A stretch of 45,525 nucleotides of DNA from Rhodothermales bacterium (GCA_034439735.1 JAWXAX010000029.1:1-45525), one strand, 5' to 3'; shown: positions 18,139-33,011, numbered from the stretch's first letter. The notes: a model not told the origin generated them from the sequence alone. Translations and numbers: made by a program.

Positions 18139-18309
18139 GAGCGTGTCCGTTTCTGTGGGATGAAACCCTGTTCGGGTCAGGTAGGAGCAAGATAAAAAGG
18201 CAGGGTGACAACATTGTGTCATAGGGCAATAACCCTGAAGATGGCCACGTTATCCACACGACCCCGCGATTCACATCCCCGTTTCCGCGCACCCATCGCT
18301 ACCGCTACC

Positions 18310-20538
18310 ATGGCACTTCGCACGATCGCATTCCTGCTGGTTTTCCTCATCGCCCGCGCCGGCCTGGCCCAGGGCCTGATCATCGGGCCGGACTACCACT
18401 TCTCCCCCATCTCCCTCACCGAACACACCGTCGATGCCGCGATCGACGAGCAGGTGGCCGTCGTGAATGTCAGCCACACGTTCACGAATCAATCGCGCGC
18501 CCAGATCGAAGGCACGTTCCTCTTTCCGCTCCCCAAGGACGCGCAGGTATCGCGGTTCAGCATGGAGATCGATGGGAAAGAGGTGGCTGGCGAGCTCCTC
18601 GCGGCCGACGAAGCGCGGGCGATCTACGAAGCCATCGTCCGCAAAAATATCGATCCGGCCCTGCTGGAAATGGTGGAGCACCGCACGTTTCGGGCAAACA
18701 TCTTTCCGATCCCTCCCGGCCAATCACGCACGATCACCCTCCGGTATGACGCCACCCTGCCGGCGGATGGCGCGACGGTCGCCTTCACCTATCCGTTCCA
18801 GGGCATCCTCGGGTCGCGCGGGCCCGGGGTAATCCCGATGCCACGGCCTATGCCGCACCGCGAGGACCGTCGGGAACCCCGGGATCGTCCTGATCGAGAA
18901 CCGCAGGCGACGCATACGACCCTCACGGCCACGATCCGGAGCGACCGGGGCGTCGGCGCCGTGTATTCGCCGTCGCACGCGGTCCAGACCGAGCGCCGGA
19001 ACAGCCGGCACGCGGTCGTCCGTTACGAGCACACCGGCGACCGCGACGGGCGCGATTTTGTACTCTACGTGACCCGCGACAACGCGGAAGTTGGCGCCAC
19101 GCTGTTGTCCCACCGCCCCTACAGCGACAAAGCGGGGTATTTCATGTTGATGCTATCGCCCAACGCCGAGCGCGGCGCGGAGGCCGTCCAGCCGCGCGAC
19201 GTCGTCTTCGTGCTGGACACCTCGGGCAGCATGGCCGGCGACAAGATGACCCAGGCCCGCGACGCGCTCCGCTACTGCGTCCAGCGCCTCGGCGCTCAGG
19301 ACCGGTTCGGGATCGTCGCCTTCAGCTCGGATGTCGATGCGTTTCGCGAGACGCTTGTGCCGGCCTCGGCGAAAGAAGACGCGCTGTTTTTTATCGACCA
19401 GCTCGAGGCCCGCGGCGGCACCAACATCGACGAAGCGCTGAAAACGGCGCTCGGGCAGCTGGACGATAGCCGGCGGGGCCAGATCGTATTCCTGACGGAC
19501 GGCCTTCCCTCGACCGGCGAAACCGACGAGGAGGCGATCCGCAAAAACATCCGCACCGCTAACGGGCAGGACGTGAACGTGTTTGCCTTTGGCGTCGGCT
19601 ACGATGTCAACACCCGCCTGTTGGACGGGTTAGCGGCCGAATCGGGGGCGTTCGCGGACTACATCTCCCCGGAAGAAACCATCGAGGAGCGCGTCGGCGG
19701 CTGGTACGACAAGGTGCGTTTCCCGGTGATGACGGATCTGAAGCTAACGATCGAAGGCGGAGAGACGTTTGCCGTAAGCCCGGGCCGGATGCCCAATCTC
19801 TACAAAAACGGACAACTCGTCGTCGCCGGCCGTTACCGTAAGGCGGGGCCGGCGCGGATCCATCTCACGGGGATGCTGGACGGCCGGGAGCAGTCGTTCC
19901 AGTACTCATTCGATATGCCGGAACGGGAGCGCGAGCGCGACTTTGTCGCCCGCCTCTGGGGCCAGCGCCGAGTCGGAGCCTTGCTGGATGAAATCCGGAT
20001 GCACGGGGAAAGCGACGAACTCAAAGAAGAAGTCATCGCCCTCGCAAAGGAGTTCGGCATCGTTACGCCCTATACCTCGTATCTGGTGACCGAGGACGAG
20101 TCGATGGCGATGGATCAGATGCCGCCGCCCGGTGCGCCGCGGCCGACGTATCAAACCCGGAGCATGAGCGCCGACGCCGGCTTCAGCCAGACGTCCGGCC
20201 AGGCGGCCGTCGAAATGAGTAAATCGATCCGGGAGATGCGTGAGGCCGAGGTGGCCGCGCCGGCCGAGGCCGGCGTCGCTGCCATCCAGGGCCGCACGAT
20301 GGTGCAGACTTCAGAAGGCATCTGGCAGGATGACGATTTCGACGCCGCGAAGGACAAGCCTCTCGCCATCGCCTTCGGGTCCGACACCTACTTCCGCCTC
20401 CTCCGCCTCTATCCGGACGCCCTGCCCTTCGCGCAGCTCGGGGAAAAGGTGGTGTTTAAACTCGGCGAGCATTTCGTTTCCATCGAGGCAGGTGGTGATA
20501 CGCTGGACGACGCAGCGCTTAGGCGATTGTTTGGCTGA
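18310..20538 (+). CDS. VIT domain and von Willebrand factor A domain protein
   Basis: A 742-residue secreted or periplasmic protein of the inter-alpha-trypsin-inhibitor-heavy-chain-like type. The start at 18310 (MALRTIAFLLVFLIARAGLA) gives a signal peptide; upstream in-frame starts at 18205 and 18241 add only disordered residues. The VIT domain follows (about 25-155: VNVSHTFTNQSRAQIEGTF, FPLPKDAQVSRFSMEIDG). A Pro/Arg-rich linker leads to the vWA domain (about 295-465) with an intact MIDAS start FVLDTSGSMAG. A C-terminal extension of about 270 residues includes a Met/Ala-rich linker and a small beta domain. Such proteins bind divalent metal and ligands through MIDAS; the partner is unknown. 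In some bacteria homologues sit with sortase or marine proteobacterial sorting genes, not seen here. Confidence 0.9.
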   Translation: MALRTIAFLLVFLIARAGLAQGLIIGPDYHFSPISLTEHTVDAAIDEQVAVVNVSHTFTNQSRAQIEGTFLFPLPKDAQVSRFSMEIDGKEVAGELLAADEARAIYEAIVRKNIDPALLEMVEHRTFRANIFPIPPGQSRTITLRYDATLPADGATVAFTYPFQGILGSRGPGVIPMPRPMPHREDRREPRDRPDREPQATHTTLTATIRSDRGVGAVYSPSHAVQTERRNSRHAVVRYEHTGDRDGRDFVLYVTRDNAEVGATLLSHRPYSDKAGYFMLMLSPNAERGAEAVQPRDVVFVLDTSGSMAGDKMTQARDALRYCVQRLGAQDRFGIVAFSSDVDAFRETLVPASAKEDALFFIDQLEARGGTNIDEALKTALGQLDDSRRGQIVFLTDGLPSTGETDEEAIRKNIRTANGQDVNVFAFGVGYDVNTRLLDGLAAESGAFADYISPEETIEERVGGWYDKVRFPVMTDLKLTIEGGETFAVSPGRMPNLYKNGQLVVAGRYRKAGPARIHLTGMLDGREQSFQYSFDMPERERERDFVARLWGQRRVGALLDEIRMHGESDELKEEVIALAKEFGIVTPYTSYLVTEDESMAMDQMPPPGAPRPTYQTRSMSADAGFSQTSGQAAVEMSKSIREMREAEVAAPAEAGVAAIQGRTMVQTSEGIWQDDDFDAAKDKPLAIAFGSDTYFRLLRLYPDALPFAQLGEKVVFKLGEHFVSIEAGGDTLDDAALRRLFG

Positions 20539-20561: not shown

Positions 20562-20580
20562 TCTAATACGCCTTTAATAC
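20562..20580 (+). promoter_or_regulatory. Two-box TCTAA/TTTAA element upstream of the regulator gene
   Basis: TCTAA at 20562 and TTTAA at 20573 are 11 bp apart and read AATTCTAATACG...TTTAATAC across the site. The same pattern recurs as a four-box array at 23756-23793. The TAATAC end resembles a -10 hexamer, as TAATAT does in the other array. The rest of the 332-base gap 20539-20870 carries no convincing gene and would be a long leader if transcription starts here. Inferred to be the autoregulatory site of the downstream winged-helix regulator. Confidence 0.4.
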
Positions 20581-20870
20581 AGCGTGCCCGCAGCTCGTGT
20601 ATCATTCACTGATCTTACGCAGCAGCCCTGATTGGAGGAAGCCAGTGGCCGAATTATGGCCATGGCCACATGTCTATCGTGTGCCTGCCCGGCTGGCGCG
20701 TAATGGTAGTCCTTCAGCATCATTCCCGGGCGATATACAGCGCGTCGCCACCATTGTGCGATACAAAGGCATAAATTCCCATTAAAAAACCGGTATTGAA
20801 CGAGCGATTTCCCCGATTCTTTCTGCATCAGAACCAGGAAGTCCTATCTTGTACTGAGTACGTGCGCCTC

Positions 20871-21665
20871 ATGTATTCATCACCCGTCATGCTGAACTCG
20901 CCGAACCGTAGCACTGATTCCGCTCTACAAGCTGAGAAGGTGAAGCTATGCCTTGTCGGGATTGAATCGATGTCGGACCTCGCCGAGGACACACCATCGG
21001 ACAGTGTTTCCGTCATAGCTCGCTTATCCTGGACGTTCTTTGATCGCATGGTCGATTCGCCGCAACTGCCGATCGGCTGTGATGCGCTTTGCTGCGCGTG
21101 GTCGCTCGATGAGCAGCCCCGTTTCGACCGTCTCTGCCGGCTGGCCAGGGAGGCAAAAATCCCCGTAATTGCATTGTGCGACGCCCCAGGCGATATCGTC
21201 CCCGCCCTGCTGATGGGCGCTGACGAAGCCGTCCCGTTGCCTTTCGACCTCGAGTGGCTCGACGCCCGCATTGCGGTGTTCAGGCGATGGACGAATCCCC
21301 CGCAGGCTACTGAAAGCACTCCAATTAGGGAAGCTGATACATCCTATCAGCTCGTTTTTGGCTCTTTGAAGATGGACCTTGTGGCGAGAACACTGCACAT
21401 CAACGATGAGCCCATCGAGTTGACGTACAAGGAATTCGAATTGCTTCGTTTTATGATGGAGCGCCCTGGAAAATGCTGTTCGCGGGATGACATCCTCGAT
21501 CATGTATGGGACATCGACTTCCATACCGGCACCAACATGGTTGAAGTGTATATGTTTTATTTGCGCCGCAAGCTGCGTGAACACCATGCGTCGGATCTCA
21601 TACAAACGGTGCGAGGTGCCGGATACCGGCTCTCCTTGCCGCAAAACGGGGGTATAACACCATGA
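20871..21665 (+). CDS. OmpR/PhoB-type regulator with degenerate receiver domain
   Basis: About 264 residues from the ATG at 20871 (a TTG at 20796 and an ATG at 20889 are alternatives). The C-terminal part is a clear OmpR/PhoB winged helix: IELTYKEFELLRFMMERPGK, then CCSRDDILDHVWD, NMVEVYMFYLRRKLR and IQTVRGAGYRL. The N-terminal part keeps the receiver fold (VIALCDAPGDIVPALLMGAD), but the phospho-accepting Asp position reads Ala/Trp (CDALCCAWSLDEQP) and the switch Lys before PF is replaced (AVPLPF). It is therefore predicted to act without phosphorylation. Its stop overlaps the next ATG (ATGA at 21662-21665), coupling it to the Asp23/AmaP genes, which it probably controls. No histidine kinase is near. 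Confidence 0.85.
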   Translation: MYSSPVMLNSPNRSTDSALQAEKVKLCLVGIESMSDLAEDTPSDSVSVIARLSWTFFDRMVDSPQLPIGCDALCCAWSLDEQPRFDRLCRLAREAKIPVIALCDAPGDIVPALLMGADEAVPLPFDLEWLDARIAVFRRWTNPPQATESTPIREADTSYQLVFGSLKMDLVARTLHINDEPIELTYKEFELLRFMMERPGKCCSRDDILDHVWDIDFHTGTNMVEVYMFYLRRKLREHHASDLIQTVRGAGYRLSLPQNGGITP

Positions 21666-22123
21666 ATGACCCCATGATTACCAGAGGGAGGATCAGAGTT
21701 TCAGCGGCGGTATTGGACAAGTTGGCGCTGGCAGCTACCCGTGAAGTACAAGGGGTGCACGATATCGAGCACCTCGTTGTCGGCGCATTGATCGGCAGTA
21801 TTGCCGGCGGCGCGCTCGGCTTTTCACAGGGCGGGCCTGCGGGTGCCGCGATAGGCGCCTCATTTGGCACTGCTGCCGGGGCCTTTCTCGGCCATTTGAT
21901 AGAGCAATCGGTCGATGCACTCCACGATACGGAGTCCGATCACCCACCACTCCACGTCCGAATCAGCGCCGAATATGGGTCGAACTTGTATCAGGTTGCT
22001 GAGGATGTGCGCCGCCGCGTTCGGGAGACGGTTTACGATCTCGCCGGCCTGCGAGTCGGCGCCATCGAAATAGAAATAGTTGAGGTTGTACAACCACGTG
22101 CCGTGCGCGCGCGAATTCACTGA
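21662..22123 (+). CDS. Asp23/Gls24-family protein interrupted by a glycine zipper
   Basis: A 153-residue protein. The N-terminal half of an Asp23 domain (about 7-35: GRIRVSAAVLDKLALAATRE, then VQGVHDI) and its C-terminal half (about 96-142: LHVRISAEYG ... VAEDVRRRVRETVYDLAGL ... IEIEIVEV) are separated by a Gly/Ala-rich segment of about 40 residues (GALIGSIAGGALGF ... GAAIGASFGTAAGAFLGHLI). That segment has the GxxxG spacing of membrane-associated glycine zippers. The two Asp23 paralogues downstream have instead a polar loop (YGAGQSVASLASAITRSDIK). The insertion could let the protein embed in or cross a membrane. It overlaps the regulator stop by four bases. Asp23 proteins in Gram-positives coat the inner face of the membrane via AmaP. 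Confidence 0.85.
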   Translation: MNDPMITRGRIRVSAAVLDKLALAATREVQGVHDIEHLVVGALIGSIAGGALGFSQGGPAGAAIGASFGTAAGAFLGHLIEQSVDALHDTESDHPPLHVRISAEYGSNLYQVAEDVRRRVRETVYDLAGLRVGAIEIEIVEVVQPRAVRARIH

Positions 22124-22173
22124 CGGCCTCCTTCCAGCAACGACAGGTCCGCCCACTCAAACACGCCACGCGA

Positions 22174-22773
22174 ATGAACGAATCGATTCTTACGACAAGT
22201 TGGCGATCGATCACGCTCGTACTGGGCGTCTTCCTCTTGCTTCTGGGCGCAACGCTCGCAGGGTATGCTGTCGTGCCAGGGAAGGGCCTTTCAGGTTCAC
22301 TCGGTGGGGCTACGTTGGCGTTCGATCTATCCGATCAATCCGCTGCCGTGCGGAGTACCTGGTTTGGGACCGGTATCCTGGGCGTGCTGTTGTCGTTGTT
22401 ACTGCTGCGCATCGGATTCGCGCGTATCGGCCAGAGGGGAAAACAGGTGATCCTGAGCGATGTGTCTTCGTCCGGAGCATTCGGCAGCGGACGCGTATCC
22501 ATTGCCATCGACAGTCTGACGGCATTGCTCGTACATGTTGCGGAGCGCGTCGAGGGGATTCGCGAGATCGACCCTAAACTGCAAATGACAAAAAAGGGGT
22601 GGCGTCTCGACTGCGTCGCCGCTATAACACCCGATGCCTTGATGCCTTCAGTGACCTCGGCCTTGAAGGCACAGCTAAAGGACACACTGGAGCAGCACAC
22701 GGGCCTACCGGTTGCCACGGTGAACATATCGGCGCAACTTCTCCCCATTCGGAATTTAAAACGCGTACGATAA
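22174..22773 (+). CDS. amaP: AmaP-like alkaline shock response membrane anchor
   Basis: A 199-residue membrane protein with the AmaP plan: a first helix (about 12-32, ITLVLGVFLLLLGATLAGYA), a short extracytoplasmic loop, a second helix (about 65-82, GTGILGVLLSLLLLRIGFA) and a cytosolic Asp23-like domain (about 95-195). In staphylococci AmaP holds Asp23 at the membrane. Here it lies between an Asp23 gene 50 bases upstream and a DUF2273-like gene 15 bases downstream, the same neighbourhood as in Gram-positives. The C-terminal domain ends TVNISAQLLPIRNLKRVR. Family assignment rests on topology, domain order and context rather than strong motif identity. Confidence 0.82.
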   Translation: MNESILTTSWRSITLVLGVFLLLLGATLAGYAVVPGKGLSGSLGGATLAFDLSDQSAAVRSTWFGTGILGVLLSLLLLRIGFARIGQRGKQVILSDVSSSGAFGSGRVSIAIDSLTALLVHVAERVEGIREIDPKLQMTKKGWRLDCVAAITPDALMPSVTSALKAQLKDTLEQHTGLPVATVNISAQLLPIRNLKRVR

Positions 22774-22788
22774 CTGGCATTACTTACC

Positions 22789-23112
22789 ATGGGCCCAGGA
22801 GATCCGTTTAAAACTATTCATACACCCATCGGGGACGACAGACTGGATCCACCCGCAATCGATTCAGAAACGGGGACCTCGGTACATTCGAGCTATTCCC
22901 CCACAACCGATATGAAACTCCGCTATATGCTACTCGGGTTTTTATTCGGCGCCCTTTTCGGTGCCAGCGTCCTGACATTCGGGTGGGGCAATACGCTCTT
23001 GATCGGGCTATGCGGTGGCGTGGGACTCCTGGCCGCGCTAATACTACATGAACTTGCGAATGGCCGATTCGACGTACGAGCCGCCTGGCATGCGTTGCGA
23101 AATACACGTTGA
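22789..23112 (+). CDS. DUF2273-like small membrane protein
   Basis: A 107-residue protein. A hydrophilic N-terminal tail of about 45 residues precedes two closely spaced hydrophobic helices (about 46-65 LRYMLLGFLFGALFGASVLT and about 68-88 NTLLIGLCGGVGLLAALIL) and a short cytosolic tail. The Gly-rich double helix after which the chain ends matches the DUF2273 small membrane proteins commonly encoded beside amaP and asp23 in Firmicutes and Actinobacteria. The N-terminal tail is longer than usual, so the true start might be the internal ATG before KLRYML at about 22912. Presumed role: membrane partner of the Asp23/AmaP assembly. Confidence 0.72.
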   Translation: MGPGDPFKTIHTPIGDDRLDPPAIDSETGTSVHSSYSPTTDMKLRYMLLGFLFGALFGASVLTFGWGNTLLIGLCGGVGLLAALILHELANGRFDVRAAWHALRNTR

Positions 23113-23148
23113 TCGCACTTATGTCCGCTCACTTTATTGGTGATTGTA

Positions 23149-23670
23149 ATGACTAAGAAATCGAGATCGAATATCACGCAGGACAACACCGTTGAAAACA
23201 TGGCCGACGATCCTGTTCGTTCTACGGGCATGGCCTTGCGCGAGAAGCATCCCGCAGCACCCGGTTCTATCGTCCTCAAAGGGGAAAATGGAAGAACGGT
23301 GATTCAGACGGAAGTTGTAGCAAAAATCGCCGGCCTCGCGGTGCGTGAGGTGTCAGGGGTCCACAAACTCGTGCCGTATGGCGCGGGCCAATCGGTGGCG
23401 TCGCTGGCCAGTGCGATCACGCGGAGTGACATCAAGGACCTCGGTGTGCAGGTCGAGGTCGGACAGAAAGAGGCGGCGATCGATGTACGAATCATCACCG
23501 ACTATGGAGCCAATATCCCCGAGATCGCGCGATCGATCCGCCAGGTAGTCGCTGAACGAATAGCGAGCATGACCGGACTTGTCGTGGTCGAAGTCAATAT
23601 CGATATCGTCGATCTTTATTTCGGACAGGACGACGACGGGCTTTCGCCCCGAGACGCCCGTGTCGAATGA
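23149..23670 (+). CDS. Asp23/Gls24-family envelope stress protein
   Basis: A 173-residue cytosolic protein. The ATG at 23149 is chosen over a TTG at 23137. A charged, disordered N-terminal tail (about 1-40) leads into a complete Asp23 domain: GRTVIQTEVVAKIAGLAVRE, VSGVHKLVPYGAG, QVEVGQKEAAIDVRIITDYG, IPEIARSIRQVVAERIASMT and VVEVNIDIVDLYF. It is strikingly similar to the next Asp23 protein at 23872 (same GRTxI opening, same ITRSDxKDLGxQVEVGQKEA core), so the two are recent duplicates. It ends the first block of the cluster, 36 bases after the DUF2273-like gene. Gram-positive relatives polymerise under the membrane and respond to envelope stress. Confidence 0.92.
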   Translation: MTKKSRSNITQDNTVENMADDPVRSTGMALREKHPAAPGSIVLKGENGRTVIQTEVVAKIAGLAVREVSGVHKLVPYGAGQSVASLASAITRSDIKDLGVQVEVGQKEAAIDVRIITDYGANIPEIARSIRQVVAERIASMTGLVVVEVNIDIVDLYFGQDDDGLSPRDARVE

Positions 23671-23755
23671 TCGCGGTGGGTACTCAGTGCAATGCGTCCT
23701 TACTGGCGCCGACCTCTATCCCTCCATCCAGCCCGGTTCGAGGCACATCAGCATC

Positions 23756-23824
23756 TCTAATGTAATTCTAATCCGGTTCTAACACCGCTCTAATATGCGG
23801 TGCGTCGTTTTGCTCAATATTGAG
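23756..23824 (+). promoter_or_regulatory. Four TCTAA boxes at exact 11-bp spacing plus palindrome
   Basis: TCTAA occurs at 23756, 23767, 23778 and 23789, each exactly 11 bp after the last. Direct repeats at this spacing are how OmpR/PhoB-type winged-helix dimers are usually loaded in tandem on one DNA face. The last box runs into TAATAT (23791-23796), a good -10 hexamer with no proper -35, as in activator-dependent promoters. The last box is also flanked by CACCGC/GCGGTG arms (23783-23802). A perfect palindrome CTCAATATTGAG (23813-23824) follows. The site precedes the Asp23 gene at 23872. Confidence 0.62.
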
Positions 23825-23871
23825 TGGTCATCATCCGGTGGCGTTCACCCAGCAAAATGACATAGCACCCT

Positions 23872-24366
23872 ATGGAAACGAGCAGGACGTCCAAGAAAAC
23901 TTCATCGGCCAGGACGACGGCCGTTTCAACTTCGGCGAGCGCCCATCACAGCGGAGCACATGTGCTGGAGGGTGATCGCGGCCGGACCATGATCCACCGC
24001 GAAGTCGTCGCAAAGATCGCCGGCCTGGCCGTACGCGAAGTGGAAGGCGTCTACCGGCTTGTCTCATACGGAGCAGGTCAAGCTGTTGCATCATTGGCCC
24101 GGTCCATCACACGCTCGGATGTAAAAGACCTCGGTATTCAAGTCGAAGTAGGGCAGAAGGAAGCCGCCATCGACGTCAAGATCGTGACCGAATACGGGTA
24201 CAGCATCCCCTCGATCGCGGAATCAATCCGAAAAAACCTCGACCACCGCGTCCATGAGATGACGGGGCTCAATGTAGTGGATATCAACATCGAGGTCATG
24301 GATCTCTATTTCCCAGAGGATGAGGTGGTCGATGCCGCCGGAGCCCCCACCCGGCGTGTCGAATAA
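23872..24366 (+). CDS. Asp23/Gls24-family envelope stress protein (paralogue)
   Basis: A 164-residue cytosolic protein. The N-terminal 35 residues are a Ser/Thr/Lys-rich tail (METSRTSKKTSSARTTAVST). The Asp23 domain follows with GRTMIHREVVAKIAGLAVRE, VEGVYRLVSYGAGQ, ITRSDVKDLGIQVEVGQKEA, IPSIAESIRKNLDHRVHEMT and VVDINIEVMDLYFPEDE. It closely matches the protein at 23149. It has its own upstream region with the four-box TCTAA array, so it and perhaps the outer-membrane genes after it may be induced separately from the regulator operon. The 120 bases to the next gene contain an inverted repeat at 24375-24400. Confidence 0.92.
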   Translation: METSRTSKKTSSARTTAVSTSASAHHSGAHVLEGDRGRTMIHREVVAKIAGLAVREVEGVYRLVSYGAGQAVASLARSITRSDVKDLGIQVEVGQKEAAIDVKIVTEYGYSIPSIAESIRKNLDHRVHEMTGLNVVDINIEVMDLYFPEDEVVDAAGAPTRRVE

Positions 24367-24374
24367 TCGCCTTG

Positions 24375-24400
24375 ATAACCGGCCGCCACTAACCGGTTAT
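24375..24400. other. Inverted repeat ATAACCGG ... CCGGTTAT
   Basis: Perfect 8-base arms around a 10-base spacer begin nine bases after the Asp23 stop. With no T tract it is a weak terminator candidate; it could be an attenuator or operator ahead of the outer-membrane protein gene at 24487. The remaining bases up to that gene show nothing else. Confidence 0.35.
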
Positions 24401-24486
24401 GGCTTGTATCATTCCGCTCATCCGCGAGCCCTCTCTCATCATTGCGCACAGCCCTGGAGGCCGCGTGTTAACGAATAGAAAACACC

Positions 24487-27084
24487 ATGGACTGTATTGA
24501 TAGAATCAAGCGAGTTTCGAAGACTCGCAATATGTGGAAGGGTGCGGCAGTGCTCCTATGGCTCCTGTCATACACCGGGATTTCCAGCGCTCAGGTTTCT
24601 GATCTGAGCTATACCCTTTCTCCTACCGCCCAACGCGTCAACTGGGCTGGCGATGCCGGATTGAAGGATGGCTATCAGTTTGGAGGATCCCTGGGCTTCG
24701 GCTTCGGGGAATTCGTTCAGCTGAGTGGACTGTATATGCTGGGCCGCGATTTCGCGACCGACTTTGGAGACTTCTCGTCAGGCGACTCCCTGTTCATGCA
24801 GTCGATCGAGTCCATTCCATCGCGGGATCTCGAATTGCAGCGTTATGGCGGCGAACTGCGGCTCAATATCGCACGCGGGTCGATTACCCCCTTCATTACC
24901 GCAGGCACCGGCCTCATCAAGTTCGAACCCAAAGATCTGGAGTCGTTCGAGCGCATCTACCTGTCGGGCGGAGCCGGTGTGTCGTTCAGTGTGGCGGATC
25001 GGTATAGGCTTTCCGTACAGGCGCAAAACCTGGCGTATCGGTACAGTCCGTCTTCTTTATTCTCGGTGGATGAACTTGCCACCCTCGGCGACACCGGTAC
25101 GCTCAGCGAGCAGCAATCCGTCCGCAACTGGGCGTTCAGCGGTAGTCTTTCGCTCTTCCTTGGCGGGCGGCGCCCGGGGCAACTGTCTGAAATTGACCGC
25201 GCGTTCAGCGACCAGTTCTCCAGCGGGTTGCGAGGACTTAGTGTGACAGCTGAACCCTTTTACGGGCAGATTAGCTTCGATGAAAATCTGGGGTACCGGA
25301 CCAGCCAGACGGTTGCCGGCGTCGGTGCGAGTTTTGATTTCGGGCCCTACCTGGGATTGCGCGGGTTCTACTGGCGTGGCTTAGACGGGAGTGCAGCGGA
25401 CGACATCCAGTTCTACGGCGGCGAGATGCAGTTCAACCTGAGCGACGGAGAGGGAGTCGTCCCGTACTTATTGATAGGGGGAGGCTACGTTGACGTACTG
25501 AATGGGTATCAAGTACCAGATGCACTCGTCGAAGCCAAGGACAATCCGTTCGCGGTTGGCGGCGGCGGTCTGGCGTTCCCGATTTCGCCGCGCTTCAAAT
25601 TGCACGCCGGCGTGCGCGCCATGTTAATGAGCACGGACAACCTGGAATCCATCAGCGCGCCGAATCAGGTTCAGACAAGTTGGATGTATACCGGTGGCGT
25701 CAAGTTCGCACTGGGTGGCCAGCGGGCTACACGCCCCGATGTGCTGTACAGACAAGAAATGGAGGACGAAGTCGCTCGTGTACAGTACGAAGCGGCCCTT
25801 CGAGAAGCTGAATTGAACGACGCCATTGCCATTTCGCAGGCACGCACCGACTCGCTGAATCACGCACTTCTGCTCGCGGACGCGCGCGGCGATTCGTTGA
25901 ATGCATCCCGGCTACGGCTCGAAAAAGCAAGCCAGGAAGCGGCTCAACAGCGCATCGAAGATCAAGCAAACCGGGCCGCGCACGTAAGCGAAGCAGCGCA
26001 GGTCACTGCCGAGCCTGCGGTGGTTCGCACCGCCAGCGGTGATCGTTTTGTCACGCTCCCTCTTCCTGAAGAAGGCGAACTATACATCCGGTTCGGCACG
26101 CCCGGCGGCGTGAACATCGAATCGACCTATGAAGAAACAGGCGTGAGCGCTCCGCAGCCAACAACAGCGGTATCCGCTCCAGTTGAGCCGCCGCTCACGA
26201 ATACCCAGATCCGTGCGATCATGAGCGAGACGCTCCGGGAAGCTCTGCGTTTACAGGAGACCGATTCCCTGCGCAGCCAGGCGCTGCCTTCGCAAAACAA
26301 GACGGGCAGTGAATCCATCGATCGGCAGCAGGAAATCTTCGACCAGCTCCAGCTGCGGCTCGACGAACTGGAACGCCGCATCGATTCGACGCAGCGTCCT
26401 TCTCAACCCGCACCCACGGGCGACGTGAGGCCGCCTGCCGGCGTCACCCAGGATGACATCGGGCAACTCGAGCGTCGCTTCGAAGACCGATTGGACGATC
26501 GTATCGAGTCGCTTCGCGCCGAGATTCGTGCGATCCCGAGATCGAACACAACGCCGCAACCGGCACCGCCTGCCGTCGTCGTCGTGCAGCCGGCCGAGTC
26601 GGCCGGCCAGACGCAGACGGTGGAACAGGTCGAGGTCGGCTCAATCTCGGGAAGCGGCCGTCAGCGTCCCTCGTATCAGCTGGACCATATCCGGCCATTT
26701 ATCGGATACAATCTCGGAGGAGATCCGAACCAGTTTCTGGTCGGGCTACGCGCCGAGTGGCAGCAACGGCAAGGCACCAGCGCATGGCGTTTTCTGCCAG
26801 AACTCGTCCTCGGGTTTGGCGAGGGTTCGACCATGATAAACCCCAGTCTGAATGTTGCCGTCCCAGTGGTCCCAATACAGCGGCTTTACCCGTACGTCGG
26901 AGGCGGACTTGGCTTGCTTGGATTTCTAAGTGCGCCCGATGGAACAGACGCCTTCGAGGCCACTCTCAACCTCCTGGTTGGGACAGAATTCGATATGGGG
27001 ACGAGCCGCCTCTTCATCGAATATGCGAACATCGACTTATCGAGTTACAACCGCATCAATGCAGGGTACAGATTAACGTTCTAA
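24487..27084 (+). CDS. Large multi-barrel outer-membrane protein with coiled coils
   Basis: An 865-residue exported protein. The signal peptide ends at about 35 (GISSAQ); an inner ATG at 24532 is a possible alternative start. Two regions with the alternating pattern of small outer-membrane beta-barrels lie at about 40-235 and 250-410 (QFGGSLGFGFGEFVQLSG; TVAGVGASFDFGPYLGLRGF). Helical, coiled-coil stretches follow (about 420-500, then 610-640 and 660-690 with heptad-like DELERRIDS and LERRFEDRLDDRIESLRAEI). The C-terminal 140 residues form a third barrel-like region (RPFIGYNLGG ... INAGYRLTF, ending in Phe as outer-membrane proteins do). Residues 524-545 carry LPLPEEGELYIRFGTPGG, a block shared with the next protein. 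Presumably an outer-membrane anchor with long periplasmic helices; exact role unknown. Confidence 0.8.
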   Translation: MDCIDRIKRVSKTRNMWKGAAVLLWLLSYTGISSAQVSDLSYTLSPTAQRVNWAGDAGLKDGYQFGGSLGFGFGEFVQLSGLYMLGRDFATDFGDFSSGDSLFMQSIESIPSRDLELQRYGGELRLNIARGSITPFITAGTGLIKFEPKDLESFERIYLSGGAGVSFSVADRYRLSVQAQNLAYRYSPSSLFSVDELATLGDTGTLSEQQSVRNWAFSGSLSLFLGGRRPGQLSEIDRAFSDQFSSGLRGLSVTAEPFYGQISFDENLGYRTSQTVAGVGASFDFGPYLGLRGFYWRGLDGSAADDIQFYGGEMQFNLSDGEGVVPYLLIGGGYVDVLNGYQVPDALVEAKDNPFAVGGGGLAFPISPRFKLHAGVRAMLMSTDNLESISAPNQVQTSWMYTGGVKFALGGQRATRPDVLYRQEMEDEVARVQYEAALREAELNDAIAISQARTDSLNHALLLADARGDSLNASRLRLEKASQEAAQQRIEDQANRAAHVSEAAQVTAEPAVVRTASGDRFVTLPLPEEGELYIRFGTPGGVNIESTYEETGVSAPQPTTAVSAPVEPPLTNTQIRAIMSETLREALRLQETDSLRSQALPSQNKTGSESIDRQQEIFDQLQLRLDELERRIDSTQRPSQPAPTGDVRPPAGVTQDDIGQLERRFEDRLDDRIESLRAEIRAIPRSNTTPQPAPPAVVVVQPAESAGQTQTVEQVEVGSISGSGRQRPSYQLDHIRPFIGYNLGGDPNQFLVGLRAEWQQRQGTSAWRFLPELVLGFGEGSTMINPSLNVAVPVVPIQRLYPYVGGGLGLLGFLSAPDGTDAFEATLNLLVGTEFDMGTSRLFIEYANIDLSSYNRINAGYRLTF

Positions 27085-27148
27085 CCAGCTCTCGACCGCT
27101 TTTCCCCGCCCTGTATTTCCCTGCACCAGGCTTTTTCCGGATGATGCC

Positions 27149-28411
27149 ATGCGCTACCACCCCTTACTTGCGGGACTGTTGGCTGTTTGCATCGGGTCAA
27201 ATCCCTCCCTGGCACAACAGGCTACTGATCTTCCCTCCGATGCGCAGCGTGCGGATAGTTCGGCGCGCCCGGTCATGGAGCGCGTGACGATGCCATTGCC
27301 CGAGTCCGGGCTGTTTTACCTCCGGATGGGGACCCCGGGCGGTGTACAGATCGACAAACGACGCACCGTGAGACACGCTCCGAGAACGCCTGATAGGCCG
27401 GCGGCACTTCCTGTCGCCGCGCCCGAACCGATGTTCCTCTTGATCCCTACCCCGCCTGTGTCGGAAGCGGTCGTTCAGCGCGCCGCGCCTGCAACGACTG
27501 AACGGCTCGCTCCGACACCCTCCGAAGAAGGTGCAGACTGGAGGGATCTACAGGACCTCGAGCGCTACTTGCTTGAGCAAATGACCGCCCGCATCGATGC
27601 GTCGATCGAAAAGAATCGAGCCCTCATGCGCGAAAGCGAGGCCTACTTGATCGGGCGCATCGACGACCGATTCGATGTGCTCCGCCGGGAGATCTCGGAA
27701 TTACGCGCCACGCTGCAACCCGCCGGCCAGACTGCTGTCGTAACAATACCGGGCGGACAGGCACCTGGACGGGATACGACGAGTAGCCTGGCCATTCGAG
27801 CCAATGAAGCCATCGTACCGTCTCTGGATGCACAGACCCAGCGCACGCTCACCCCTGCACCTCCCCCCCACTTGTCCTTGCCCATCGTCGAACGCATTGA
27901 ACGGGCTATGCTCGAGACCGGTGTCTTTCTGGCGCTGTCGATCAACTTCGAGCTCGGTAAGGAACAGCTCCTGCCTTCCTCCCTACCCACCCTCGACGCC
28001 GTTGGCCATGTCCTGACCAATTATCCTGACCTGCAGATCGAGATTGCAGGCCATACCGATTCTACCGGCCCCCTGGCGTTAAATCAGACGCTCTCGCAGG
28101 CGCGGGCCGAGTCCGTCCGCTCGTATCTCCTCGCTACAAATCCCGGCATCGTCCCGGAGCGGCTTGTGGCGCGCGGATACGGACCTACCCGGCCGCTCGC
28201 CAGCAATGATCGACCAACCGGACGCATGCTCAACCGGCGGGTAGAGTTTACCGTCCTCAATCCTGAAGCGACGCAACGGCTCACGCGCACCACTTCGCTA
28301 TCACCCGTGGATTCATCGACGACGGATAGCGAAGTACTCCGCCTGCTGCGCGAACTGCTCGAACAAGAACTGCTGCGTACCGAGCCTGCACGCCCAGACA
28401 CTTTGCATTGA
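27149..28411 (+). CDS. OmpA-family peptidoglycan-binding protein
   Basis: A 420-residue exported protein. The signal peptide (MRYHPLLAGLLAVCIGSNPS, then LAQ) is followed by a copy of the block seen in the upstream protein (residues 48-69, MPLPESGLFYLRMGTPGG). A Pro-rich stretch and a coiled coil come next (about 130-190, MTARIDASIEKNRALMRES, IDDRFDVLRREISELRATL). The C-terminal OmpA domain lies at about 265-375 (LSINFELGKEQLLPSSLPTL, IEIAGHTDSTGPLALNQTLS, QARAESVRSYL, ERLVARGYGPTRPLASN, NRRVEFTVL), with the peptidoglycan-contacting Asp and Arg residues in place. It lacks a transmembrane barrel of its own, so it probably binds the wall and partners the multi-barrel protein 64 bases upstream. 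The lipoprotein gene follows after five bases. Confidence 0.9.
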   Translation: MRYHPLLAGLLAVCIGSNPSLAQQATDLPSDAQRADSSARPVMERVTMPLPESGLFYLRMGTPGGVQIDKRRTVRHAPRTPDRPAALPVAAPEPMFLLIPTPPVSEAVVQRAAPATTERLAPTPSEEGADWRDLQDLERYLLEQMTARIDASIEKNRALMRESEAYLIGRIDDRFDVLRREISELRATLQPAGQTAVVTIPGGQAPGRDTTSSLAIRANEAIVPSLDAQTQRTLTPAPPPHLSLPIVERIERAMLETGVFLALSINFELGKEQLLPSSLPTLDAVGHVLTNYPDLQIEIAGHTDSTGPLALNQTLSQARAESVRSYLLATNPGIVPERLVARGYGPTRPLASNDRPTGRMLNRRVEFTVLNPEATQRLTRTTSLSPVDSSTTDSEVLRLLRELLEQELLRTEPARPDTLH

Positions 28412-28416
28412 CGATT

Positions 28417-29367
28417 ATGAACGCGAAACGCGTACCCACTCCGCTTATGTCTGCCCTGATCACAGGGCTCTTCCTCGTTGCAGGATGCACTGCTCCCGAA
28501 CCTCCGGCAGTGGAGATGCAGGACGGTCGCCTCGTGCTCGCCGGCGCTTCCCTGGAGGAGCACATCGAACGTTCGTTGGCCTTTGAAGGCAGAACCTTCG
28601 TGTGGAAAAACCCGGAAGGAGATGTTACGCTCGAAGGAATAGATGCTCCAATCGCGACCTTACGTTTTACGAAACGAGCAAGGGGAAACGACCGAGTCGC
28701 TGCGCAAGAGCATCTCGATGGCATTGAGCTACGTGAAAGTGGCAGCGAATCCGCATTCTCGTTCACGGCGCATTATCCACGTAAATCCACACACAGTGCT
28801 GTCGCGTTGGCCGGCCAGCTCCCCAGAGCTACGAACCTCTCACTCGAAATCAATAATGGTAATATCGCGTTGACAGATGTCGCCGGCGACCTTACTGCAA
28901 AAAGCGTCAATGGCTCGATCACGGTTCGGCATCAGAACGGTACCCTCAAGCTGGCCACCGAGAATGGTGATATCTTCCTGGTGGAAAACACCGTGCATCT
29001 ATCTCATCGTATCGAAATGACAACCCTGAACGGGGACATAGAACTCTTTCTCCCGGAAAACATCGACGCAACTGTAGACGCCAGTACGTCCGTCGGCACG
29101 ATCGAGTTGTCCGGTCTTGCGCTCTCCACAAAAGCATTCGAACAAACATCCGTGGGTGCTGCATTGGAAGCCACGCTCGGAAAAGGTGGCCCAACAATCC
29201 TACTGAGCACCCAGAAAGGGCGAATTAATATCGGCACGATCCCCGTATCTATACCCGAGAAGAGGCCTGAGACTACTGGCGTCGACTCAGTAGAGGTCCA
29301 GCAAACGGTGCCCGACTATCCAATGCCTGACACCACAACAACGCCGGCTCGCCAACCGGTGTTGTAA
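28417..29367 (+). CDS. Lipoprotein with DUF4097-like beta-helix domain
   Basis: A 316-residue lipoprotein. The ATG at 28417 (three codons inside an open TTG start) leads to a signal ending in the lipobox VAGC. The central part (about 120-270) has the repeating short-strand pattern of the DUF4097/adhesin-like beta-solenoid: LSLEINNGNIALTDVAGDLT, AKSVNGSITVRHQNG, LATENGDIFLVEN, TTLNGDIELFLPENIDATVD, STSVGTIELSG. DUF4097 proteins are often found with envelope-stress or anti-sigma systems, which fits the Asp23 cluster. The C-terminal tail is Pro/Thr-rich and disordered. Only five bases separate it from the OmpA-family gene, so they are co-transcribed. Confidence 0.82.
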   Translation: MNAKRVPTPLMSALITGLFLVAGCTAPEPPAVEMQDGRLVLAGASLEEHIERSLAFEGRTFVWKNPEGDVTLEGIDAPIATLRFTKRARGNDRVAAQEHLDGIELRESGSESAFSFTAHYPRKSTHSAVALAGQLPRATNLSLEINNGNIALTDVAGDLTAKSVNGSITVRHQNGTLKLATENGDIFLVENTVHLSHRIEMTTLNGDIELFLPENIDATVDASTSVGTIELSGLALSTKAFEQTSVGAALEATLGKGGPTILLSTQKGRINIGTIPVSIPEKRPETTGVDSVEVQQTVPDYPMPDTTTTPARQPVL

Positions 29368-29448
29368 TGTGCCGTACTGCGTCTTCGAGTTCATGATGGT
29401 TACCGATCCGGTACATTTTGCCTACCTTGTGGCTCTGCATTCGAAGAC

Positions 29449-30486
29449 ATGCGTAGGAGCTGTATGATTCCCTTTGTTGTACCACAGGATGCCCGCGTTC
29501 CCAGGGACTCTCTGTCGATCTCCCAGTCGCTCGCGGATTCCAGCGCCGCGGCGGATTCACTTCAGAGCGACAGTTCGATCTTATCGCTCACCCCGCGACT
29601 GGCCGAGGCGCAATCCCAGCTCATCGACGGTCAATGGGAAGAGATCATCAAGACGTTTTACACCGAACTTACGAGCATTGCGGCGACGTTCATCCCCAGG
29701 CTGGCCAGCGCCTTGTTCGTCCTTTTCCTGTTCTACCTCCTGTTCCGATTTAGCAGCAAGCTCCTGCGCCAGCTCTTACATCGGAGCAAACATGTTGACG
29801 CCGGCCTGGAAGGCCTGCTCACGAAGACCTACGCCGTCGTCGCGTGGATCTTCATCGGGATCATGGTGCTCGCACAGTTCGGCATCAACGTCACCGCTCT
29901 GCTTGCCGGCCTGAGCGTGGCCGGCATCGCGGTGGGGTTTGCGGCGCAAGATACCCTCCAGAACTTCATCGCCGGCATCACCATCCTGACCGATCGTCCC
30001 TTTCGAATCGGTCATTTTGTTGAAGTGGACCAGGTGTATGGGCAGGTAGAGGAAATCACGCTCCGTTCCACGCGTGTACGAACCCCGAATAACGAGGTCA
30101 TGGTGATGCCCAATTCGCTGATGATCAACCAGAAACTGGTCAACCATTCGCTCTTCGGAGTGCTGCGTATCGAGATCCCGTTCGGCATTGCGTACAAAGA
30201 ATTTCCCCAGGAGGCTCGCGACGTGGTGCTTGCTATCGTTAAGGGCGACGAACGCCTGCACCCCGATTATACGCCGGATGTCGTGGTGACATCCCTGAAC
30301 GACTCCAGCGTGGACATGAAGCTTAGGCTCCACATCAGCGACTCAAAACTGGCTGTCCCGATGAAAAGCGAGTACACGGAACGGATCCGGGAAGCGCTCC
30401 GCGATGCCGACATTGAAATCCCATTCCCACACCTCCAGCTGTTTATCGACGAAGCGAAGGCATTCCCCCAGGGCGGGGTCGCCTGA
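29449..30486 (+). CDS. MscS-family mechanosensitive channel
   Basis: A 345-residue small-conductance mechanosensitive channel. An acidic, Ser-rich N-terminal region of about 70 residues (extracytoplasmic) precedes membrane helices at about 80-105 and 125-145. The pore helix follows with the family signature ALLAGLSVAGIAVGFAAQDT, then LQNFIAGITILTDRPF. The cytosolic beta domain contains RSTRVRTPNNEVMVMPNS, and the alpha/beta vestibule ends near IPFPHLQLFID. It releases solutes on hypo-osmotic shock. Starting 81 bases after the lipoprotein gene on the same strand, it completes the envelope cluster and links it to membrane tension. The start could also be the ATG at 29464. Confidence 0.93.
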   Translation: MRRSCMIPFVVPQDARVPRDSLSISQSLADSSAAADSLQSDSSILSLTPRLAEAQSQLIDGQWEEIIKTFYTELTSIAATFIPRLASALFVLFLFYLLFRFSSKLLRQLLHRSKHVDAGLEGLLTKTYAVVAWIFIGIMVLAQFGINVTALLAGLSVAGIAVGFAAQDTLQNFIAGITILTDRPFRIGHFVEVDQVYGQVEEITLRSTRVRTPNNEVMVMPNSLMINQKLVNHSLFGVLRIEIPFGIAYKEFPQEARDVVLAIVKGDERLHPDYTPDVVVTSLNDSSVDMKLRLHISDSKLAVPMKSEYTERIREALRDADIEIPFPHLQLFIDEAKAFPQGGVA

Positions 30487-30717: not shown

Positions 30718-31107
30718 GTGCCTCCAGAATCCACCCTGCCCCGCCCCACCGATGCCGAGCTAGCGATCCTGCGTGTATTGTGGGATTGCGGCGCCAGCAC
30801 CGTGCGCGCCGTCCACGAAGCGCTCGAGTCCACCCAGTCGACCGGCTACACGACCGTCCTCAAGCTGATGCAGATCATGCACGGCAAGGGCCTGGTGACG
30901 CGCGACGACGCCAACAAGGCGCACGTATACCGGCCGGCTGTTGAGGAGGAGGCCATCCAGCGCAACCTGGTGGCATCATTGCTCGACCGGGCGTTTCAGG
31001 GCAGCGCCGAGAAGCTCGTGCTCCGCGCCTTATCCCTGAAACCCAGCACCCCCGAAGAACTCGCCGCGATTCGTGCGTTGTTGGACAAACTGGAGGACAC
31101 GCCATGA
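30718..31107 (+). CDS. BlaI/MecI/CopY-family transcriptional repressor
   Basis: A 129-residue repressor starting at GTG. The winged helix is clear: RPTDAELAILRVLWDCGAST, VRAVHEAL, GYTTVLKLMQIMHGKGLVTR, HVYRPAV; the dimerisation tail follows (about 85-129), with a plausible protease-sensitive region in the middle. It is expected to dimerise on the TACGAA-N4-TTCGTA dyads in its own promoter and to be inactivated by the membrane peptidase encoded next. The stop overlaps the peptidase start codon (ATGA at 31104-31107), so the two are translationally coupled, as in blaI-blaR1 pairs. No beta-lactamase gene is present in the neighbourhood, so the signal need not be a beta-lactam. Confidence 0.93.
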   Translation: MPPESTLPRPTDAELAILRVLWDCGASTVRAVHEALESTQSTGYTTVLKLMQIMHGKGLVTRDDANKAHVYRPAVEEEAIQRNLVASLLDRAFQGSAEKLVLRALSLKPSTPEELAAIRALLDKLEDTP

Positions 31108-33011
31108 ACGCGACTTTTGTAGATCTTGCGGGCTTGGCGCTACTGCACTCGCTGTGGCAGGGATTGGTAATCGCTGGGGCGTTGGGCCTGGCGCTGCACC
31201 TGCTGCGCGGCGTCTCACCGGGGGTGCGGTATCTGGTGTGTTGGGTGGCGTTGGTGGCGATGGTTGCCGCGCCGGTGGGGTTGGTGTTGGGTGGACAGGG
31301 GGGACTCGCTGGACAGGGTGTTGGGGGATGGGAGGAAGGAGCGGTGGCGCCGGCCACGACAGAGGGTTTGGGGGGTGGAGTGGATGAGGAGTTGGCGGCC
31401 TTGCAGGAATCCAGTTTTGCGGTGCGGCCGTTTCTGGTTGTGGGGTGGTTGGTGGGTGTTGTTGTGATGCTCGCCCGACTGGTGCTGGGTTGGCGGGCCG
31501 TGCATCGACTGTGCCGGCTGCCGGGCGAGGCGCTCGGCGAGGACCTACGGCTGGCCGTCGACCGGTTGCGGAATCGGTTGGGGATAGACCGGCTCATCCG
31601 CATCACCGTGACCGACCGCGCCGGCGAGCCGATGCTTATCGGATGGCTCAAGCCCGTTGTCCTGATCCCGGCCGCCCTGCTCGCCGGCATGCCGGTAGCG
31701 CAGGTCGAGGCCATCCTCGCCCATGAGCTGGCGCACATCCGCCGGCACGATTACCTTTTCGCCGTGCTTCAATCGCTGATGGAGGCCGTGCTGTTTTACC
31801 ATCCGGCCGCGTGGTGGATTTCGGGGAAGATCCGCGAGGAGCGCGAGCGGGCGTGTGACGACCTGGCGGTAGCGGCGATCAACAACCGGGTGACGTATGC
31901 CCGTGCGCTGGCCGGACTGGAGCAGCGCCGGGTGGAGTCGACGCGGCTGGCGCTGCTGGCTGGCGGAGGGTCGTTGCTGGAGCGGATCCAGCGCCTGGTG
32001 GAGCCGCCGGCGCCGGACCGGTTGCGGTCGAGCGCCGGCGTGGTGCTGGTGGTGGCGATGGTGGTGATTTCCGGCTTCTTGATGGCGGCCTGCAACGAAA
32101 AAACCCTGCCTGGAGAGCCCCTCGTCGAAGACCTCGCCGCCCTTCCCGACGAGCTGGCCACGATGATCCAACAGGCGGATATCGAGGGGACGATTACGTA
32201 CCTGCACGACCGGCGGGAGGCGGGGGATCCGGGGGCGTATCAGCTGTTGCTGGATGCTTTTCGGGCAGCGAAGGATGACGAATTGCGCCGTAACATGGTG
32301 TTCGTCTTCGCCCACTTCAACACGCTGGAGGCGGATCGAGAGCTGATCCGGATTGCTGAGACAGATTCGGAACCGAGAGTTCGGCAGAATACAGTTCGAG
32401 CCATCAATATGCGTATCCCCCGAGATCAGGCGGCCACTTATGGTGTCGCATTCACCCGGGGAGAGCCCATCGGATACAACGAACACTATCCCAAAATGTC
32501 CGATGAACAGATTGAAGCCGTCCGCCCGGGATTGAGGCGCATTGCGCTAGATTCCGACAACCCATCTAACTCATCTGCCGTGCATGCACTGGCGTGGCAT
32601 GGTGACGAAAAAGAATTGCTCGAGGAGTTATTGATGGGTAGTGAAAACTATCTGCTACTTTCTGATGCCGTGGTGTTGCTGGGAACACCCGATGATCAGG
32701 GACGCTCCCTCAGGGATCTCTATCATCGCTGGAACGGCGAGGGATTGGGACGACACCACGTTTTAGGTCGACTGGTATCCAGCTTCCCTTCCATGGAAGG
32801 CGTTGAGTTGGTACTCGACGCCGCGAGAGACGACATGAAGCAACATTTCGAGGGGGAGTACGCGATTCTGATGGGTTATCTCGAGCGTTTTCCGCCGGAG
32901 CTTCGCCTGAACGCCATCACTCGATTGGAACAGGAGCAGGGGACATTCGAGGCGGGTAGTCAACCTGCCGACGAGCTGCGCGATATGATTAAGCGGCTGA
33001 ACACGTTGTAG
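31104..33011 (+). CDS. M56 (BlaR1-like) membrane sensor peptidase with repeat C-terminus
   Basis: A 635-residue membrane protein. Several N-terminal helices (first at about 5-30, then 38-56 and 110-130) enclose the M56 metallopeptidase domain with the zinc motif HELAH at 207-211 (AILAHELAHIRRHDYLF), and ERERACDDLA supplying the further metal ligand. A helix at about 312-332 (VVLVVAMVVISGFLMAAC) leads to an extracytoplasmic domain of about 300 residues. In place of the beta-lactam-binding domain of BlaR1, this domain is made of helical, HEAT-like repeats (RQNTVRAINMR, SNSSAVHALAWHGDEKELLE, SDAVVLLGTPDDQGRSL). It is expected to cleave or release the BlaI-type repressor when the outer domain senses its signal, which is unknown. 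Confidence 0.88.
   Translation: MNATFVDLAGLALLHSLWQGLVIAGALGLALHLLRGVSPGVRYLVCWVALVAMVAAPVGLVLGGQGGLAGQGVGGWEEGAVAPATTEGLGGGVDEELAALQESSFAVRPFLVVGWLVGVVVMLARLVLGWRAVHRLCRLPGEALGEDLRLAVDRLRNRLGIDRLIRITVTDRAGEPMLIGWLKPVVLIPAALLAGMPVAQVEAILAHELAHIRRHDYLFAVLQSLMEAVLFYHPAAWWISGKIREERERACDDLAVAAINNRVTYARALAGLEQRRVESTRLALLAGGGSLLERIQRLVEPPAPDRLRSSAGVVLVVAMVVISGFLMAACNEKTLPGEPLVEDLAALPDELATMIQQADIEGTITYLHDRREAGDPGAYQLLLDAFRAAKDDELRRNMVFVFAHFNTLEADRELIRIAETDSEPRVRQNTVRAINMRIPRDQAATYGVAFTRGEPIGYNEHYPKMSDEQIEAVRPGLRRIALDSDNPSNSSAVHALAWHGDEKELLEELLMGSENYLLLSDAVVLLGTPDDQGRSLRDLYHRWNGEGLGRHHVLGRLVSSFPSMEGVELVLDAARDDMKQHFEGEYAILMGYLERFPPELRLNAITRLEQEQGTFEAGSQPADELRDMIKRLNTL

Follow-up and report, generated by a model that had tools for sequence, protein, structure and literature searches.

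The question raised by this locus is whether Asp23, AmaP and DUF2273-like proteins, encoded among outer-membrane genes in a member of the Rhodothermales, belong to a single envelope module or are simply neighbours of the genes beside them. Asp23 proteins are abundant in Gram-positive bacteria, and in Staphylococcus aureus the filament-forming Asp23 is anchored at the inner membrane by AmaP, the loss of either protein inducing the cell-wall stress response (PMC6954212). The same source describes the family as 'exclusively' Gram-positive, while PMC5437119 also lists it in other phyla, including Bacteroides/Fusobacterium and Thermotoga. The original prediction proposed a ten-gene module bracing or monitoring the whole envelope. 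It took the system as established in Gram-positive bacteria, which is right for what is known of its function there, but the family had been noted more widely.

The window, as we call the whole stretch of 45,525 nucleotides that was analysed, is contig 29 of a draft genome of 5.13 Mb (304 contigs, 98.1% complete). As predicted, ten consecutive ORFs lie on the + strand between 20796 and 30486, and they are accompanied by two groups of operator-like boxes:

20562..20577, no strand: two operator-like boxes, 11-bp-phased (TCTAA-N6-TTTAA), 5' of the regulator and glycine-zipper Asp23 genes
20796..21665, +: winged-helix regulator of the OmpR/PhoB family, its receiver degenerate (Trans_reg_C 6.7e-26)
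21662..22123, +: glycine-zipper Asp23 protein (Asp23 4.8e-12; Gly-zipper_Omp 5.9e-7)
22174..22773, +: AmaP-like protein (NF033218 3e-13; hydropathy)
22789..23112, +: DUF2273-like protein, two membrane helices predicted (PF10031 21.5 bits; hydropathy)
23137..23670, +: Asp23 paralogue 1 (PF03780 4.1e-24)
23756..23793, no strand: four operator-like TCTAA boxes, 11-bp-phased, 5' of Asp23 paralogue 2 and the OMP gene
23872..24366, +: Asp23 paralogue 2 (PF03780 1.4e-25)
24487..27084, +: candidate multi-barrel outer-membrane protein (OMP) with long coiled-coil linkers (OMP_b-brl 8.3e-9)
27149..28411, +: secreted protein with an OmpA C-terminal domain of the peptidoglycan-binding type (OmpA 1.3e-16)
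28408..29367, +: DUF4097 lipoprotein, a mere neighbour of the module (DUF4097 9.2e-11; lipobox VAGC)
29449..30486, +: MscS-type mechanosensitive channel (PF00924 6.6e-23; PF21082 1.3e-6)

The probable start codon of the regulator is ATG 20871. Overlaps between the genes, which had been part of the claim, are real at two junctions, each of 4 bp and one dependent on a TTG start, but the other junctions do not overlap. Given that the gene for Asp23 paralogue 2 is flanked by gaps of 201 and 120 bp, several promoters are likely in the run. The named families were recovered by profile matches, with AmaP and DUF2273 scoring just below the curated cut-offs. The three Asp23 proteins reach 90.2, 85.5 and 46.7 bits against PF03780, all above the cut-off of 28, the AmaP-like protein reaches 49.9 bits against the NCBIfam profile NF033218 (equivalog cut-off 55), and the 21.5 bits of the third family stand below the PF10031 (DUF2273) cut-off of 25.4, so that we use the name DUF2273-like only. 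The structure prediction of the OMP contains three groups of about 8 strands, which fits the multi-barrel description, although the model is of low confidence (pLDDT 45.7).

The Asp23 domain of the protein encoded at 21662-22123 is interrupted by a glycine zipper, a form kept in four Rhodothermales genomes, while paralogues 1 and 2 are 57% identical and their doubling is peculiar to the window within the Rhodothermales set. Hydropathy places membrane helices at the N-terminus of the AmaP-like protein and an Asp23-like tail in the cytosol, as fits AmaP, and all nine aligned diderm AmaP homologues matched NF033218. The DUF2273-like protein of the window begins with MGPGDPF. This MGPxDPF start was found in seven diderm loci (the window and six others); it is absent from the DUF2273-like ORFs of two loci, L013 and L015, and from all Firmicutes loci compared. 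A plasmid search returned Asp23 records only of the Gram-positive type. The window, which comes from a diderm, has in common with the set of S. aureus and other Gram-positives the Asp23 proteins, the AmaP-type anchor and the DUF2273-like neighbour, and adds to it the glycine-zipper Asp23, the MGPxDPF-type DUF2273-like protein, an OmpR-type regulator with YTAA boxes and the OMP and OmpA genes.

Asp23 was detected in 3 of the 60 Rhodothermales genomes searched, the window's own included, and in the identical three among 395 genomes of the phylum; two same-family genomes searched lack it. An alignment search of genome contigs gave matches where a single-protein search had given none. Roseithermus sacchariphilus (locus L010, genome G009), whose chromosome is complete (CP030158.1), also carries the set. 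In this genome and in G012 the order is glycine-zipper Asp23, AmaP, DUF2273-like, Asp23, (a lipoprotein of ~175 aa), OMP and OmpA, and in loci L008 and L009 the OmpA homologues lie directly 3' of the OMP gene. In a fourth Rhodothermales genome, SS_bin_36, the set is divided between two contigs, L013 running from AmaP to OMP and L097 carrying the glycine-zipper Asp23 and then, where the contig ends, the first part of AmaP. Three Rhodothermales families share this gene order, their proteins being about 32-64% identical. The regulator gene is present in all four genomes: first and on the same strand in the window, upstream and divergent in G009, and divergent between the Asp23 and OMP halves in G012 and SS_bin_36. 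That it keeps company with the module despite these changes of place and strand was counted in favour of a module.

Synteny of all ten genes among relatives had been named as a check. The conserved unit runs from the regulator to the OmpA gene, eight genes in the window, and leaves out DUF4097 and MscS: homologues of these two were found neither near the module in relatives with sufficient flank nor near the OMP genes of other genomes. Ten genes are, therefore, too many for the conserved unit and, judged by gene order, the conserved core in the window is the eight genes at 20796-28411. Wherever Asp23 was found in Rhodothermales, its half of the module stands beside the outer-membrane half, as had been proposed.

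The reverse does not hold. An alignment search with the OMP matched 20 of 60 genomes. Two of these matches are marginal (E about 1e-5), and Asp23 is missing from 15 of the 18 genomes with a strong match. Around many of these Asp23-free OMPs there are lipoprotein or OmpA homologues, and no Asp23, AmaP or regulator gene was found there. The OMP-OmpA part of the window is thus a member of a commoner Rhodothermales unit of lipoprotein, OMP and OmpA-type peptidoglycan anchor, most examples of which, unlike the window, have no Asp23, AmaP or regulator alongside. The Asp23-linked OMPs are not monophyletic (AU p 0.0185), a result that leaves a single origin of these OMPs unsupported, though a single gain followed by losses may still account for them. 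Since the OMP unit so often occurs without Asp23 and the linked OMPs are not one clade, the outer-membrane half does not need Asp23. A regular break in synteny between the halves, named beforehand as evidence against the module, was accordingly seen in one direction, as OMP without Asp23, but not in the other, Asp23 without OMP having not been found in Rhodothermales. The outer-membrane unit is commoner than the Asp23 set, and in Rhodothermales Asp23 is found only attached to that unit.

The two halves are further linked by a putative operator of PhoB type, 11-bp-phased YTAA, that is common to both and favours the predicted association. Winged helices of the OmpR/PhoB family bind tandem repeats of 11 bp. 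At 23756-23793 of the window, four TCTAA boxes follow one another at exact 11-bp spacing, where none would be expected. The triple form TYTAAN6TYTAAN6TYTAA has one site per genome in the three Asp23 genomes, always inside the module, and occurs in 1 of the 57 other genomes of the order (G023), in an unrelated place, as a repeat array 5' of a SusC/D-type pair without Asp23. At 4 of 60 genomes, the triple box is not a general promoter element. The YTAA arrays are located 5' of the glycine-zipper Asp23, Asp23 and lipoprotein/OMP genes (L010:8279, 9838; L009:7396, 7468, 9300, 11043). Sites equivalent to that at 20562 of the window, 5' of the glycine-zipper Asp23 gene, are L010:8279, L009:7468 and L097:2464, and arrays similar to that at 23756-23793 are L010:9838, L009:9300, L009:11043 and L013:2063. 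With palindromic YTAA-core matches counted on both strands, relaxed boxes number 8 and 10 in these loci against 0.02 and 0.04 expected, counts that are descriptive because the motif was first spotted by eye in these loci. The looser core gives 4 matches in the window against 0.64 expected, which is weaker by itself. In the loci read, relaxed YTAA boxes occur only at module promoters, and they recur in SS_bin_36, a genome that had no part in defining the motif, with three at L013:2063 and two at L097:2464.

The candidate reader of these boxes is the regulator, described at the outset as a degenerate winged-helix protein, and aptly so: the winged helix is clear, and the receiver has lost its D, T and K. 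A canonical OmpR/PhoB receiver has a phospho-acceptor Asp together with a conserved T/S and K. In an alignment of four species, the Asp is replaced (LVSW, LVHW, LIAW and CCAW), and in all four the T/S has become C and the K is lost. The protein, therefore, has the winged helix and phased putative sites of the OmpR/PhoB family without the phospho-acceptor residues and, judging from this alignment, ordinary phosphorylation on Asp cannot act as its switch. The fold of its model matches PrrA, MtrA, the PhoB effector on the pho box and the orphan regulator 2hqr, so that the matches include full-length OmpR-family proteins and one orphan, phosphorylation-independent regulator. The regulator is not exclusive to Asp23 loci; strong relatives exist elsewhere in the order, and in three genomes paralogues adjoin YkuD L,D-transpeptidases, as would suit a family that regulates the cell wall.

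The two halves could nevertheless form one regulon rather than one machine, the Asp23 and OMP-OmpA genes answering the same stress and regulator and acting separately on the inner and outer membrane. The existence of the OMP unit without Asp23 in most genomes, the separate operator-like boxes of each half and the 120-201 bp between the parts are consistent with this explanation. Against it, the tight adjacency is held across families though the regulator gene moves, and Asp23 is similarly linked to OmpA/OMP genes in Myxococcota. On balance we regard a regulon of separately acting parts as a serious possibility, if somewhat short of probable.

Outside Rhodothermales, Asp23 was detected in 10 of 284 Myxococcota genomes and in 2 of 195 genomes of one further phylum. 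In several of these loci (L011, L012, L015 and L091 of the Myxococcota set, and L014/L096), Asp23 occurs with an ECF sigma factor gene, a PF05552 channel gene and OMP and/or OmpA, and in G416, G417 and G419 the linked channel gene is the sole PF05552 gene found in the genome. In another genome, G884 (L108), Asp23 and an AmaP-like gene, named by topology and position as it has no Pfam match, are divergent to a canonical MscS gene. By comparison, L092 and L094, both of the Myxococcota set, have Asp23-AmaP-DUF2273 with no outer-membrane module beside it, and neither channel nor outer-membrane matches were obtained for L089, L090, L093 or L095. Among eight diderm genomes picked for Asp23 loci with enough flank, a mechanosensitive channel lies <9 kb from Asp23 in six (4.6e-6 with one draw per phylum group) and OmpA lies near it in seven (1.4e-3), values that are guides only given the preselection and the simple draw model. 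The MscS gene, predicted as part of the module, is not conserved there in Rhodothermales, but the link between Asp23 and a mechanosensitive channel recurs in other diderm phyla.

A known arrangement resembles these loci. PMC8999054 and PMC7641640 present the proposal that SigX of Pseudomonas aeruginosa is controlled by a mechanosensing complex in which CfrX (84 aa; PMC7641640), the CmpX channel and the OprF porin take part. As in the window, a transcription factor, an OmpA-type protein and an MscS-like channel belong to one locus. In L011, L012 and L015 the likeness extends to the ECF sigma factor and to a short acidic ORF (83-94 aa) located between the sigma and PF05552 channel genes, with OmpA also present, the resemblance of this ORF to CfrX being one of size. 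The SigX system, as far as these accounts describe it, has no Asp23 or AmaP, and the window, with an OmpR-type factor and a canonical MscS instead, is not a member of that set. In the literature searched, mostly outside subscription papers, no report brings together Asp23, OmpA and mechanosensitive channels.

These loci also bear on the possibility that Asp23 is chiefly an anti-factor sequestering a transcription factor at the membrane, with bracing a minor role. In PMC8999054, ECF286 and ECF292 sigma factors adjoin Asp23 proteins predicted as anti-sigma factors; a transcription factor is encoded beside Asp23 in the window as well, where it is a pseudo-receiver OmpR-type regulator, though the ECF286/ECF292 case is known from prediction only. 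A regulator lacking its phospho-site would suit such control, as would the presence of ECF sigma genes beside Asp23, seen in Myxococcota and an actinobacterial locus. The small protein between sigma factor and channel in Myxococcota may, however, itself be the anti-sigma factor, and Asp23 of S. aureus forms filaments (PMC6954212), and so we hold a chiefly sequestering role to be rather unlikely.

A role in lipid or fatty-acid homeostasis, like that of Bacillus subtilis YqhY, which is tied to ACCase control (PMC5437119), would make the outer-membrane genes targets of altered membrane supply. The module includes no lipid-synthesis gene, and its AmaP and DUF2273-like proteins agree with a set of the AmaP type, which leaves this role very improbable. 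Misassembly, contamination or chance might be suspected in a 304-contig draft whose two searched family members lack Asp23, but the Roseithermus chromosome and a second single-contig genome carry the set, refuting an artefact, whose chance we consider negligible, and a coincidental neighbourhood is excluded because other families of the order keep the set.

We consider it moderately probable that the core at 20796-28411 is a co-regulated, envelope-spanning stress module of a diderm in which Asp23 forms the membrane-anchored cytoplasmic layer. The gene set and its order are conserved, the operator-like boxes are common to both halves and the receiver is degenerate. The occurrence of the OMP unit without Asp23, the scatter of the Asp23-linked OMPs over more than one clade, the lack of conservation of the DUF4097 and MscS genes, and the two Myxococcota loci without an outer-membrane module were counted against this reading. 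In the proposed mechanism, the Asp23 proteins would make up a layer lining the cytoplasmic side of the inner membrane, with AmaP and the DUF2273-like protein as its anchors, the part that AmaP plays for Asp23 in S. aureus, and the glycine-zipper Asp23 may insert into, or clamp onto, a membrane. On the outer side, the multi-barrel OMP would act with the OmpA-domain protein to link the outer membrane to peptidoglycan. The regulator would drive both halves via the tandem YTAA boxes at 11-bp spacing and probably reads the envelope state via a protein partner, the likeliest being the membrane-anchored Asp23/AmaP layer. The Asp23 layer inside and the OMP-OmpA layer outside would thus be expressed together by a phosphorylation-independent regulator. 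We infer the physical coupling of the layers, the signal, and the bracing or monitoring of the envelope by the module.

Given that Myxococcota and another phylum wire the Asp23 set to an ECF sigma factor, a CmpX/MscS-type channel and mostly OmpA/OMP, the recurring theme appears to be mechanical or osmotic envelope stress. In diderm bacteria Asp23/AmaP might even be the cytoplasmic side of a mechanosensing complex that spans the envelope, with outer-membrane barrels and OmpA anchors passing strain to a membrane-anchored Asp23 layer holding or releasing a transcription factor (the pseudo-receiver regulator in Rhodothermales, an ECF sigma factor in Myxococcota), an extension that we judge unlikely at present. 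The cultured Roseithermus is a possible host for testing. A diderm version of Asp23 beside outer-membrane, wall-binding and tension-channel genes hints, at the genomic level, that mechanical or osmotic envelope sensing may be what the Asp23 layer serves.

A short motif resembling VTLPVPxEGELYIRFGxPGGVxIES is present in both the multi-barrel outer-membrane protein and the secreted OmpA C-terminal protein encoded in the window:

~aa 523-548 of the 24487-27084 product, outer-membrane protein
~aa 44-70 of the 27149-28411 product, OmpA protein

Cross-matches between these two proteins were also detected in the relatives' loci L008 and L009. A small extra ORF carrying the motif ETRGRGxxVRG, and perhaps encoding an Asp23-like protein, overlaps the end of the gene for the glycine-zipper-split Asp23 protein in two relatives, while none was seen in the window:

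L009:7990-8373 (approximate), ORF overlapping the Asp23 gene end
L097:2990-3370 (approximate), the same in Rhodothermales SS_bin_36

In a low-GC genome of the Myxococcota set (L092), Asp23-AmaP-DUF2273 adjoins putative PBP1C and alpha-2-macroglobulin genes, identified by eye. Paralogues of the module's pseudo-receiver winged-helix regulator are adjoined by YkuD L,D-transpeptidase genes in three Rhodothermales genomes (L110, L111 and L115). Five TTTAAGGTTCR-like tandem repeats with 11-bp spacing, located upstream of a SusC/D-type pair in G023, a genome without Asp23 (L037:9073-9121), possibly constitute another OmpR-type operator.

In the window, the module is preceded on its 5' side by genes encoding a flotillin-like Band_7 protein (14236-15462) and a VIT/VWA-domain protein (18205-20538). 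Immediately 3' of the MscS channel gene, 30718-33011 encodes a BlaI-type repressor together with a BlaR1-like peptidase of the M56 family that carries HEAT-like repeats, a pair that is perhaps another envelope sensor.
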